The notes under the pieces were generated by a model, which ran no database searches, had not been told where the DNA came from, and worked only from the letters and a program-made list of their open reading frames with translations. From Lentisphaerota bacterium (lineage in GTDB: Bacteria; Verrucomicrobiota; Kiritimatiellia; PWTM01), in contig VGWF01000008.1 of the NCBI GenBank assembly GCA_016873715.1, positions 1 to 61,135 of the forward strand: a stretch of 61,135 nucleotides of DNA. The letters run 5' to 3'. The position numbers and the translations under genes are program-made. Positions 24,324-28,358 of this stretch are shown here, in pieces; the first letter of the stretch is position 1, and each line of letters begins with the position of its first letter.

Positions 24324-25394
24324 TCAGGGGCCGTGAACGTTGATGATCACCGGAAGGTCGATTCTCGGCTGGCTGGTCGATGATGTTCCGAAGGAGATGA
24401 GGCCGCTCACGGTCCGTTCCGGCACGCGAGACAGGGTCGCGGTCAGTTCGTGGCGTGCGCCGCCGTCCGACGAGGTCAGGTCGAGATGGATGCCGTCCAC
24501 GGTGCTCGTTGGATTCCGGATCGCGAGGCCGCCTCCCGATGCCGGGACGATGGCCACCCGCCGGGCGGGGGGCGCGTCAGCCCGATCCGTCCCGCCCGGG
24601 TCCGGACGTCGTACGTTCCAGTACAGGGCCTCGGGGGTCACGCTGACCTCCCCGAGAATCCGGCCGTACAGGTAGATGTCCCTGATGTGGCCGTCCCCTC
24701 CGCCGGGCGCGAGGACGTGAACCTGCTCGTGGAAGCGACGCGGGGCGCCGTCCCGCTGGACCGCTACGAAGATCCTCCCGGTGGAATCATTGGCGCCGGG
24801 GCCGGGCTCCATCCAGGCCGTGATCCAGGGCCGGGTGGTCTTGAAGACCAGGGGGGACAGGGGCCGCCCGTCCGTGCGACGGATGGCGGTGCAGAGGCTC
24901 GTGGCCGAGAGGCCCCAGGGGAGGACCGGGGCCAGGGTCCCCGGGGCGATCTCGTGGAGCGGCGCGTAGTCGGCCTTGACCGTCAGCCGGGACGTGGGCG
25001 ACCGGGGATCGTTGGAACGGACCAGGATGTACCGTTTCACCGCCGACGCGGACTCGCCCAGGTGAAGCGTGAACGCCAGTTGGGCGACCTCGCCCGGCTG
25101 CAGGCAATTCCGTTTCAGGCCGGACCAAGTGCATCCGCAGGTCGATTCCAGGGGATCGATCCGAAGGGCGGCGGCTCCGTCGTTCGTCACCGTGAACACC
25201 CCGGCGACGCGGTCCGACCACGAGATGCGGCCGAAATCCCACGCCATCCTGTCGAACCGGATACGCGGCGACTCCTGGGCGGAGGCGATCAGCGGCAGCC
25301 CCAGGCAGGTTCGTGCGAGGACTCGGATCGCACGCGCGAGGGCCGGGGTCGACCTCAATCCACATGACAGGGAACAGCCCGGAACAGCGTTCAT
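24324..25394 (-). CDS. DUF1573 secreted protein
   Basis: Protein of 356 residues with an N-terminal export signal ending near LGLPLIASAQ. The first third is a DUF1573 immunoglobulin-like module: IRFDRMAWDFGRISWSDRVA, FTVTNDGAAALRID and ESTCGCTWSGL, containing the hallmark CGCT. A second beta domain follows (DIYLYGRILGEVSVTPEALYWNV) and a third near the C-terminus (SGLISFGTSS). DUF1573 proteins are periplasmic or surface proteins of unknown function, common in Planctomycetota and Bacteroidota. ATG 25394 follows AGGGAG at 8-9 nt. It lies 84 nt downstream of the split vWA pair on the same strand. Confidence 0.75.
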   Translation of the reverse strand: MNAVPGCSLSCGLRSTPALARAIRVLARTCLGLPLIASAQESPRIRFDRMAWDFGRISWSDRVAGVFTVTNDGAAALRIDPLESTCGCTWSGLKRNCLQPGEVAQLAFTLHLGESASAVKRYILVRSNDPRSPTSRLTVKADYAPLHEIAPGTLAPVLPWGLSATSLCTAIRRTDGRPLSPLVFKTTRPWITAWMEPGPGANDSTGRIFVAVQRDGAPRRFHEQVHVLAPGGGDGHIRDIYLYGRILGEVSVTPEALYWNVRRPDPGGTDRADAPPARRVAIVPASGGGLAIRNPTSTVDGIHLDLTSSDGGARHELTATLSRVPERTVSGLISFGTSSTSQPRIDLPVIINVHGP

Positions 25395-25478
25395 CTGTGC
25401 GGCTCCCTGGCACATCACCCGGACGACCATGGTCTGCCCGCGCAAGTCGCGAGGATCCGGCGCCGGTGCCGGGAGGGT

Positions 25479-26054
25479 CTAGTCGAGGACTTCGACGGTG
25501 TCGCTCGTGGCCTCCGGCGGGACTTTCTCGCCGAGGAAGAGGCGGAACTGGTATTCGCCCGGCCGTTCCGGCGCGGCAACGTCGTACACCCGCTTGGTCA
25601 GGTTGTTCAGGAAGGTGTACGAAATGTAGGCGTCGTCCGCGGCGTCCACCGGGAAGAAGCCTATCCAGGCCTGTTTGGACGCGTTCGGGATCTCGGAGTG
25701 CATGCAGACGATTCGCTCACCCGGCTCGACCACGGGCGTCTCCAGCACGATCTCCGCGCGGGTGGGCGACCGCGTGGAGGCAAGGTCCACCGCCTCCTTC
25801 ATCGCGAGGTCCAACTCCTTCTCGTCGCGCCCCGCCACCAGCATCCGCCCCTTGGCCCCCCGTTCCTCCACCGCCTTGACCATGTTCTGAAGCATGGTCA
25901 GGGCTGTCGTGTTCGTGCCCAGGTCATACCCGATCGTGACGAGGTCGATCTTCCCGTCGCCGGACGCCTCGTCCTGCGGATCGGCGCCCGGGACCGCCGG
26001 GGAAACCAGCAGACACGATGCGAGAATCGCCAGCCCAACCCGTGGTCTGTTCAT
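25479..26054 (-). CDS. Secreted protein carrying the C-terminal part of a split von Willebrand A domain
   Basis: Protein of 191 residues with its own signal peptide (MNRPRVGLAILASCLLVSPA, cleavage near VPGA). Residues 34-92 (KIDLVTIGYDLGTNTTALTM, then MVKAVEERGAKGRMLVAGRD, KELDLAMKEAV) match the last strand and helices of vWA domains of the Ca-activated-chloride-channel type, where this segment directly follows SDGEETC-x-GDP. In this genome that preceding segment ends the upstream protein. Residues 100-191 form an all-beta domain (EIVLETPVVEPGERIVCMHS to EYQFRLFLGEKVP). It overlaps the upstream gene by ATGA. Probably the two periplasmic products assemble; this is inference. Confidence 0.65.
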   Translation of the reverse strand: MNRPRVGLAILASCLLVSPAVPGADPQDEASGDGKIDLVTIGYDLGTNTTALTMLQNMVKAVEERGAKGRMLVAGRDEKELDLAMKEAVDLASTRSPTRAEIVLETPVVEPGERIVCMHSEIPNASKQAWIGFFPVDAADDAYISYTFLNNLTKRVYDVAAPERPGEYQFRLFLGEKVPPEATSDTVEVLD

Positions 26055-27142
26055 GGATTCAGCCCCCTCGCCGCGGCGGTCGGATCCCCCTTGCAGGTCT
26101 CCTCCCCGTCGGACAGGACGATCAGCGTTCGATGGGCCCCGCGGCCCTTCTTCCGGATGAAGTCGCCGGCGAAGGCCGTCGCCTCGGCAAGATTGGTGTC
26201 GCCACCCGGCTGGATCTTCCCGATGGCGGATGCAAGCGCCGTCTTGCTGGCCGCATCGACCACCGCGAACTCCGACACGACCGTGATGCCCCCGCTGCAG
26301 TTGTGAAACGTGATGACCGCGACCTCGGTGCCGGCGTCGAGACGCTGGATCTGGCTGATCGCCGTGCTCTTGGCCTTCTCGATCTTGTTGTCATCCCGCA
26401 TGCTGCCGGAGGCGTCGATCAGGAACACGATGGATGCGAGATTCCTGTCGCCCCCGGAGCCTTCCATGACGTAGATGAACTTCATCTTTGCGTTTCCGCG
26501 GATGCTCCGGACGGCCTCGTCGATCTTCCCCTCCAGCAGCAGATGGCCGATCGAGATGGTCTCGTCGCGATCCGTGACGTGAACGTAGAGGTGTTTCGGG
26601 GAGAACATGACATCCGCATTCAGGACCAGCCGCCATCGATCCAACTCGGTGGGACGAAGGGCCACACCGCCGTTCTTGGCCCCGGGATCCCACATGCAGC
26701 CCGTCCACAGAACCGCTTTGAGGCGGGGTGGCTTGCCGTTCCGGTTGAAGTGCTTCCAGAAGTTCTGGAAGGGGATGCGATCCTGTCCGTCGCCGAACGT
26801 ATACCGGCTGCCATGGCAGTTGAAGATCAGCACGTCGCCGTCCTGGAGAGATCGGATGCCCTCCAGGGCGCGGTCGTGCCCCACGAAGGTATCGCCAGCC
26901 GGGATGCGGTCCTTGAGCTGCGGCGGGAGGGTGGCCTGGTCCAGTTGCTTTCCTGTCTTCTTGTCCTGGGAGAAGATCTCCACCGCAATCACGCGCGCGC
27001 TGGCCGGGACGGCGCTCGTGACGAGGAGGAGGACTCCGGCGGCGAGACAGCGAGATACGGTTCGGGGTCTGGCACCGGGATGCCGCACGCTGGACGCCGC
27101 GGAGATGGGATAGATGGGATTGCCCTGATGGTGCAGTTTCAT
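26051..27142 (-). CDS. Secreted caspase-like / von Willebrand A protein, N-terminal partner of a split vWA domain
   Basis: Protein of 363 residues. An export signal has its hydrophobic core at residues 32-48. Residues 50-225 resemble a caspase/CHAT fold, with a His-Gly motif in DVLIFNCHGSRYTFG (His110) and a Cys in KAVLWTGCMWDPG (Cys149), the usual dyad order. Residues 236-363 are a vWA domain with full MIDAS: DASGS (Asp243, Ser245, Ser247), Thr316 in PGGDTNL and Asp345 in LSDGEE. The chain stops at GDPTAAARGLNP, before the last strand and helix of vWA; these are in the next gene (ATGA overlap). Protease activity is only suggested by the dyad. Confidence 0.72.
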   Translation of the reverse strand: MKLHHQGNPIYPISAASSVRHPGARPRTVSRCLAAGVLLLVTSAVPASARVIAVEIFSQDKKTGKQLDQATLPPQLKDRIPAGDTFVGHDRALEGIRSLQDGDVLIFNCHGSRYTFGDGQDRIPFQNFWKHFNRNGKPPRLKAVLWTGCMWDPGAKNGGVALRPTELDRWRLVLNADVMFSPKHLYVHVTDRDETISIGHLLLEGKIDEAVRSIRGNAKMKFIYVMEGSGGDRNLASIVFLIDASGSMRDDNKIEKAKSTAISQIQRLDAGTEVAVITFHNCSGGITVVSEFAVVDAASKTALASAIGKIQPGGDTNLAEATAFAGDFIRKKGRGAHRTLIVLSDGEETCKGDPTAAARGLNP

Positions 27143-27230
27143 CGATCGAATCGTGCCACGTCATGTGCCGGATGACAAGACAAGGAAACACTCGCCGGAG
27201 TTGTGGGCTGAAAGCCGCGGGTCGGGTGGT

Positions 27231-27336
27231 GGGGACAGAGACGAGGTCGGGCGGGCGTGGGGACGGGCGGGCGGGGCGGCCGTGGGGCGGGCGTGGGGAC
27301 AGAGAAGAAAGTTGGAACAACTTCCGGAATTTTGTC
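27231..27336. repeat. GGGGACAGAG repeats and hairpin upstream of the RAYT gene
   Basis: GGGGACAGAG at 27231-27240 and 27297-27306, the second extending to GGGGACAGAGAA (27297-27308), identical to the end of the 136-bp elements at 16742. A hairpin AAGTTG-GAA-CAACTT (27309-27323) follows directly. Probable recognition and folding sequences of the neighbouring RAYT. Confidence 0.65.
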
Positions 27337-27395
27337 GTCGCGGCTTCTTCTCATGGATGGCGGGGCTTGGGGTCCCGCGGGGAGGAGACCTGGCG

Positions 27396-28358
27396 ATGCG
27401 ACATGCGCGACTGAAGCCGGACTGGCAGGACAGCTGGCACCACTGTTACAACCACGCCGTCGGGACGGCGGACGACCGGCCCTTTGGCCGGGCCGAGAAG
27501 GAGGGGTTTGTCCGCATCCTGATGCGGGTGGCCGAGTTCTACGCCGTGAGGGTCGTTGCCTACCAAGTCATGTCCAACCACTGGCACCTTCTCGTGCGGG
27601 CGCCCCGGGAGATGCTCTCGGAGGCGGAGACGATCGAGAGGTACAAGGCGTTTCACCGGGGCCGGCGCAACCTGATGCCGGGGAGCCGGCTCTGCAGGCA
27701 GTGGCAGGAGCGGTTGCGGGACGTGAGTTGGTGCATGCGGCATCTCCAGCAGCTCTACACGGTGTGGTTCAACAGGTCGCGGCGGGTGCGGAGGAAGGGG
27801 CCGTTGTGGGCGGGGCGGTTCAAGAACACGGTTCTCGAGACGGGGACGGCGCTGTGGGCGTGCTGGGCCTACATCGAGCGCAACCCGGTCCGGGCGAAGA
27901 TGGTGAGCGATCCTGGAGAGTACCGGTTCTGTTCGTACGGGGTATGGGTGCAGACGGGGCGCCATCCGTTTGAGGAGGCCCTGGTGGAGGTGCTGCGCCC
28001 GGCGTTGCCGGAGCGGCTCATGGCCCTGGATCCGACGGCGCTGCGGAGGGAGCTTCGGTTGGAGTTCGAGCGGCTGGCGGCGGAGGATCTGGCGCGGGCG
28101 CAGACGGCCGCGGGACATGAGCCGGCGCAGGCGAAGAGCGCCGGCCCGGAGATCGCCTTCACGCTCTCGGCGCGCCGGCGGGTGCGGCACTGGGTGGATG
28201 GCCTGGTGATCGGCTCCGAGTTGTTCATCCGGGACATCATGAGGAGGGTTCGCACCGGCGAGGAGGTCGCCCGCCACCGGATGGCTCGAACCACTCCTCC
28301 CGCTGGCACCCCCGCCGAGATCTGCTGCTGGAACCGACTGCGCGCCGCACGGGAGTAA
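27396..28358 (+). CDS. REP-associated tyrosine transposase (RAYT, IS200-like Y1 family)
   Basis: HUH single-strand transposase of 320 residues. The Y1 core is complete: N-terminal DSWHHCYNHAV, the metal-binding HUH motif in VMSNHWHLLV (His62, His64), RKGPLWAGRFKNTVLE and the nucleophile Tyr159 in AYIERNPVRAKMV. An ~80-residue C-terminal extension ends with a basic helix-turn-helix-like segment. RAYTs are usually single-copy, domesticated enzymes that process REP hairpins. Flanking inverted GGGGACAG / CTGTCCCC words fit this. ATG 27396 follows GGGGAGGAG; upstream in-frame codons run into the repeat and were rejected. Confidence 0.88.
   Translation: MRHARLKPDWQDSWHHCYNHAVGTADDRPFGRAEKEGFVRILMRVAEFYAVRVVAYQVMSNHWHLLVRAPREMLSEAETIERYKAFHRGRRNLMPGSRLCRQWQERLRDVSWCMRHLQQLYTVWFNRSRRVRRKGPLWAGRFKNTVLETGTALWACWAYIERNPVRAKMVSDPGEYRFCSYGVWVQTGRHPFEEALVEVLRPALPERLMALDPTALRRELRLEFERLAAEDLARAQTAAGHEPAQAKSAGPEIAFTLSARRRVRHWVDGLVIGSELFIRDIMRRVRTGEEVARHRMARTTPPAGTPAEICCWNRLRAARE

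Follow-up and report, generated by a model that had tools for sequence, protein, structure and literature searches.

A von Willebrand A domain divided between two overlapping genes with predicted export signals in the Kiritimatiellia

Introduction

Can a single von Willebrand A (VWA) domain be encoded by two genes, each of which carries an export signal of its own? Few folds for adhesion and metal binding are as widespread as the VWA domain. The question is raised by two adjacent genes on contig VGWF01000008.1 of a Lentisphaerota bacterium (assembly GCA_016873715.1, class Kiritimatiellia), of which a stretch of 61,135 nucleotides, called the window in the following, was analysed. Here, we ask whether the two gene products contain the halves of one domain, whether the arrangement is an accident of this genome, and how the halves might act together.

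Two genes for one VWA domain

The upstream gene (26051-27142, minus strand) encodes a protein of 363 amino acids, P1, with a predicted signal peptide, a domain containing HG and GC motifs and a VWA part reaching from strand 1 to helix 5. The downstream gene (25479-26054, minus strand) encodes P2, 191 amino acids long, with a predicted signal peptide, a VWA part from strand 5 to helix 7 and an Ig-like domain. Both open reading frames are present, and the stop codon of the first overlaps with the start codon of the second in the sequence ATGA (26054-26051, minus strand). A Shine-Dalgarno-like GAGGGGG (26063-26069, minus strand) is found 8 nt 5' of the P2 ATG, within the P1 reading frame. P1 ends in VLSDGEETCKGDPTAAARGLNP directly before its stop codon and P2 starts with MNRPRVGLAILASCLLVSPAVPGADPQDEASGDG followed by KIDLVTIGYDLG. 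On the same strand, 33 bp downstream of P2, lies a gene for a secreted DUF1573/HYDIN-like Ig protein (24324-25445, minus strand), possibly part of the same operon; such a gene was not seen beside the pair in the two related genomes described below. A gene for a Y1_Tnp (IS200-like) transposase (27153-28358, plus strand) is oriented divergently from P1 close to the P1 start.

Does P2 really contain what P1 lacks? The VWA half of P1 (residues 236-363; 26054-26437, minus strand), delimited by profile match and structure model, reaches 54.8 bits with the Pfam VWA profile (PF00092; curated cut-off 23.8) and covers only positions 2-125 of the 174 profile positions, so that neither chain contains a complete VWA domain and the rest resides on P2. 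When P1 was joined to residues 34-95 of P2, the match extended to position 151 (155 and 159 for the joined proteins of the two relatives), with a gain of 11.0 bits for the window and of 17.5 and 10.2 bits for the relatives; the membership score of the joined window sequence in PF00092 is 69.3 bits. A second profile was built from 23 unsplit VWA domains of related genomes that had been picked by the P1 half only and was thus blind to the second half. With this profile the gain of the joined sequence over P1 was 11.5 bits for the window and 18.5 and 15.2 bits for the relatives. Shuffled second halves matched the joined score in 0, 0 and 1 of 500 cases for the three genomes, and unrelated real fragments in none of 3000 for each genome. 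The break lies where helix 5 ends, and the junction shows no sizeable gap as compared to unsplit proteins, as exemplified by AVRDLKATGIKFVMHVVGFGV, which aligns with AARGLNP followed by GKIDLVTIGYDL in an unsplit protein. Predicted secondary structure gives the full VWA order when both chains are read together, strands 1-4 with their helices in P1 and then strand-helix-strand-helix in P2. The P2 segment is homologous to the missing part of the VWA domain. The preliminary description of the locus had proposed one VWA domain spread over two ATGA-overlapping genes: the reading frames, their overlap and the profile scores of the joined halves confirm this, and the score gains with their controls and the junction alignment show that its central claim, that P2 resumes the domain where P1 stops, was right.

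All MIDAS residues are found in P1, as had also been noted earlier: D243, S245 and S247 in the D-x-S-x-S arrangement, T316 and D345. They are invariant in the three genomes and form a predicted divalent metal site. In the structure model of P1 the VWA strands comprise residues 232-243, 272-279, 286-294 and 335-343 and the helices residues 246-267, 297-308, 318-332 and 354-361, and a structure search matched the model to solved VWA domains, for example CLCA1, with TM scores of 0.62-0.63 by target. Downstream of its signal peptide P2 continues with KIDLVTIGYDLG, the strand-helix-strand-helix unit (residues 34-95; 25770-25955, minus strand) and the Ig-like domain (residues 103-191; 25482-25748, minus strand), which also follows unsplit VWA domains at two other loci (L031, L032). 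Confidence in the P2 model is low (mean pLDDT 54.5), the boundaries of its predicted elements (strands 38-43 and 69-74, helices 49-64 and 78-91) being indicative only, and the structure search with it gave mainly Ig-like folds and not a VWA half. Comparison of P2 with the sequences of solved structures yielded chance-level matches only.

Predicted export signals

Judged from sequence and hydropathy, the first 49 residues of P1 (26996-27142, minus strand) comprise an N-terminal extension and a signal peptide with a hydrophobic core at about residues 32-42 and a likely cleavage site between VPASA and RV. The first 33 residues of P2 (25956-26054, minus strand) appear to form a signal peptide and linker. 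Between the three genomes the N-terminal segments of P2 do not share a single invariant column, yet all are strongly hydrophobic, as signal peptides usually are. The hydrophobic N-termini thus suggest that both P1 and P2 are exported from the cytoplasm. A lipobox-like LASC occurs at P2 residues 11-14 in the window (26013-26024, minus strand) and is absent in both relatives. The signal peptides of P1 and P2 resemble each other vaguely in the window but not in one of the relatives (L040); an origin of the split by tandem duplication, with each copy losing the opposite part, was considered.

Recurrence in related genomes

Is the split peculiar to this contig? Two further genomes of the class have the split in the same position; their families differ from each other and from that of the window, which gives 3 split pairs in 346 genomes of the class. 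One of them, Lentisphaerae bacterium GWF2_57_35 (G189; L030/L041), was found by searching the genomes of the phylum. Here P1 ends in ELTDGMETCNGDPVKAAGNINN before the stop codon, and P2 has a hydrophobic segment followed by KRQLVVVGYDL. The start of this P2 is uncertain, as the longest open reading frame shares 59 bases with P1 and another ATG is located further on, just past the P1 stop; the N-terminus is hydrophobic under either start. The other (G397; L035/L040) came from the full search of all 346 genomes of the class. Its P1 ends in FLSDGEETCNGKPADSVRRLNP, its P2 starts with MKTKFMMMLPILAFAIAAPCFSQQ and continues with NKIDVIVIGYDI; the genes again overlap in ATGA, and a Shine-Dalgarno-like GAGGAGG lies 8 nt upstream of the P2 start, the same place as in the window.

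Pairwise identities between the three genomes are 64, 46 and 49% for the VWA half of P1 and 48, 31 and 40% for that of P2, which is the less conserved half. For both halves pN is below pS, with pS near saturation. The neighbours of the pair differ among the three genomes, indicating that P1 and P2 stay together as a unit. In GWF2_57_35 the pair is situated among genes for CsgG/LpoB-like lipoproteins (L041:1158-9407), and a gene resembling one of these neighbours (L041:1756-3105) also follows the VWA/Ig protein of L036. Searches of plasmids and viral contigs gave no relatives.

A search for unsplit close relatives, together with signs of decay of the genes in the window, gave neither. The unsplit protein nearest to the pair, 656 amino acids long (L036:1486-3456, minus strand), has a VWA domain of this subfamily on a single chain, in which the region from strand 3 to strand 5, including two MIDAS residues, is missing (joined as ELAVIAF followed by SDIEASPEAQ); either a deletion in frame or a collapse during assembly could account for this gap. 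A search of the class with a profile of the C-terminal half returned, besides the three split pairs, L036 and matches to the Ig-like domain only (L031, L032, L039). Since in L031 and L032 the Ig-like domain follows a complete VWA domain in one chain, it is plausible that the ancestral protein combined both domains in a single chain.

The split is real and conserved and not an accident. The check for the same split in related genomes, suggested in the preliminary description, thus turned out positive, and its view of a natural split instead of a simple frameshift is strongly supported by the recurrence and by the signal-peptide-like start of the second gene in all three genomes, which bears out, at the level of sequence, the proposed signal peptide of P2.

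How might the two halves act together?

We consider it likely that the pair is a conserved two-gene cassette in which one VWA protein is made as two separately exported chains that rejoin outside the cytoplasm. The ATGA overlap and the Shine-Dalgarno-like site inside the P1 gene probably couple the translation of P2 to the termination of P1, which would provide similar amounts of both proteins. Each chain would then be exported by its own signal peptide. In the VWA sheet the strands are ordered 3-2-1-4-5-6, so that P1 would form a four-stranded sheet with an exposed strand 4, with which strands 5 and 6 of P2 would pair. It could be imagined that outside the cytoplasm strand 5, helix 6, strand 6 and helix 7 of P2 dock onto this edge, completing the six-stranded sheet and linking the HG/GC domain of P1 to the Ig-like domain of P2. 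The MIDAS half might be stable or competent only in the presence of P2, a control by assembly. Strand 4 (TLIVLS, TLIFLS, GVIELT) and strand 5 (IDLVTIG, IDVIVIG, QLVVVG) are hydrophobic in all three genomes, as would be predicted for strands that continue to pack against one another in a buried position. Considering the fold, reassembly of the two halves, also proposed in the preliminary description, is plausible, which leaves the interpretation given there supported in part.

This explanation is supported by the same split in three genomes of three families, the scoring of the P2 segments as the missing VWA part, the full VWA order of the predicted elements of both chains, the match of the P1 model to solved VWA domains, the continued conservation of both halves (pN below near-saturated pS), the preservation of hydrophobicity and not sequence in the signal peptides, and sister proteins that have a VWA domain followed by the same Ig-like domain in one chain. 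The weak P2 model with its Ig-like matches in place of a VWA half, the lower conservation of the P2 half and the number of only three examples count against it. In an alternative, which we regard as unlikely overall, the halves never rejoin: P1 would be a stable truncated VWA protein, and P2 would be secreted as a small Ig-like protein in which the VWA-derived piece is kept for some other role, for example dimerization. It would account for the halves being separate exported chains, for the lower conservation of the P2 half as compared to the P1 half and for the retention of the C-terminal half without the VWA middle in L036, but in all three genomes the P2 segment still fits those positions of the VWA profile that P1 lacks, and the two genes are kept together in otherwise different neighbourhoods. 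Considerably less probable is that the halves do reassemble with the P2 signal uncleaved or lipidated, whereby P2 would anchor the assembled VWA domain and P1 to the membrane; hydrophobic N-termini could serve as anchors and the L-A-S-C at residues 11-14 of the window P2 resembles a lipobox, which is however missing in L040 and L041, and small-residue cleavage sites follow the hydrophobic stretch.

Could the two frames instead give rise to one chain? If ribosomes shifted frame in a programmed manner or bypassed the stop codon, the hydrophobic stretch would become an insert within the VWA domain; the overlapping reading frames and their continuous coding capacity would be compatible with this. 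Relative to P1, P2 is read in frame -1 in the window and in L040 but in frame +1 in L041, which makes programmed frameshifting less likely. In two of the genomes a Shine-Dalgarno-like site precedes a separate start codon of P2, and the insert resembles a signal peptide in all three, leaving this explanation very improbable. Even less credit can be given to an error of sequencing or assembly, or to a pseudogene in decay. The window does belong to a draft genome of 289 contigs, but the arrangement is shared by three separate assemblies whose VWA halves are 31-64% identical, the reading frames being intact and pN lower than pS. A simple frameshift, a pseudogene and an assembly error are ruled out by the occurrence of the same split in three families.

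What could such an assembly control? The N-terminal domain of P1 (residues 50-230; 26453-26995, minus strand), an alpha/beta domain according to model and sequence, was found in only 3 of the 346 genomes of the class. It contains His110-Gly111 and Gly148-Cys149, each following a predicted strand, and both motifs are readable in the sequences of L040 and L041 as well, the GC motif of L041 being out of register in the automatic alignment. Clan CD cysteine peptidases of the caspase, CHAT and gingipain type similarly carry a His-Gly and an Ala/Gly-Cys dyad after consecutive strands; in contrast to these, the P1 domain has no significant match among Pfam, NCBIfam or PDB sequences. A clan CD peptidase-like nature, with fold and activity both putative, is therefore a lead only. 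That the halves must join outside the cytoplasm for a working MIDAS and that this assembly switches the attached peptidase-like domain is a tentative idea that we hold to be rather doubtful.

Comparison with known systems

Secreted bacterial proteins with a VWA and a C-terminal Ig-like domain such as L031 and L032 share fold, partner domain and domain order with the pair. They consist of one chain, whereas in P1/P2 the VWA domain is interrupted after helix 5, before strand 5, and a second predicted signal peptide is present. In chaperone-usher pili the Ig fold of a subunit is completed by a strand of the chaperone or of the neighbouring subunit. This resembles the proposed arrangement in that a secreted fold is completed by strands of another chain, but in P1/P2 it is half of an alpha/beta VWA domain that is provided, and by a dedicated overlapping gene. 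The alpha2-delta subunits of voltage-gated calcium channels differ from P1/P2, as a single precursor is cut after synthesis and outside the VWA domain and the parts are disulfide-linked. Like P1/P2 in the proposed arrangement, they are VWA/MIDAS proteins that end up as two extracytoplasmic polypeptides (PMC5043047). A search of full-text literature, few of it subscription papers, found no precedent of a split VWA domain, in agreement with the earlier statement that the arrangement is not known from described systems; P1/P2 thus represent a VWA protein in an arrangement that was not found described, absence from such a search not being proof. If the proposed explanation is true, this natural and conserved break, placed after strand 4 and before strand 5 and with a predicted export signal on either part, would show that completion of a VWA fold in trans is possible outside the cytoplasm. 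Designers of two-part sensors would thereby be given a naturally occurring place at which to divide the domain. The P1/P2 pair is a rare, testable two-gene cassette from a poorly studied group of bacteria.
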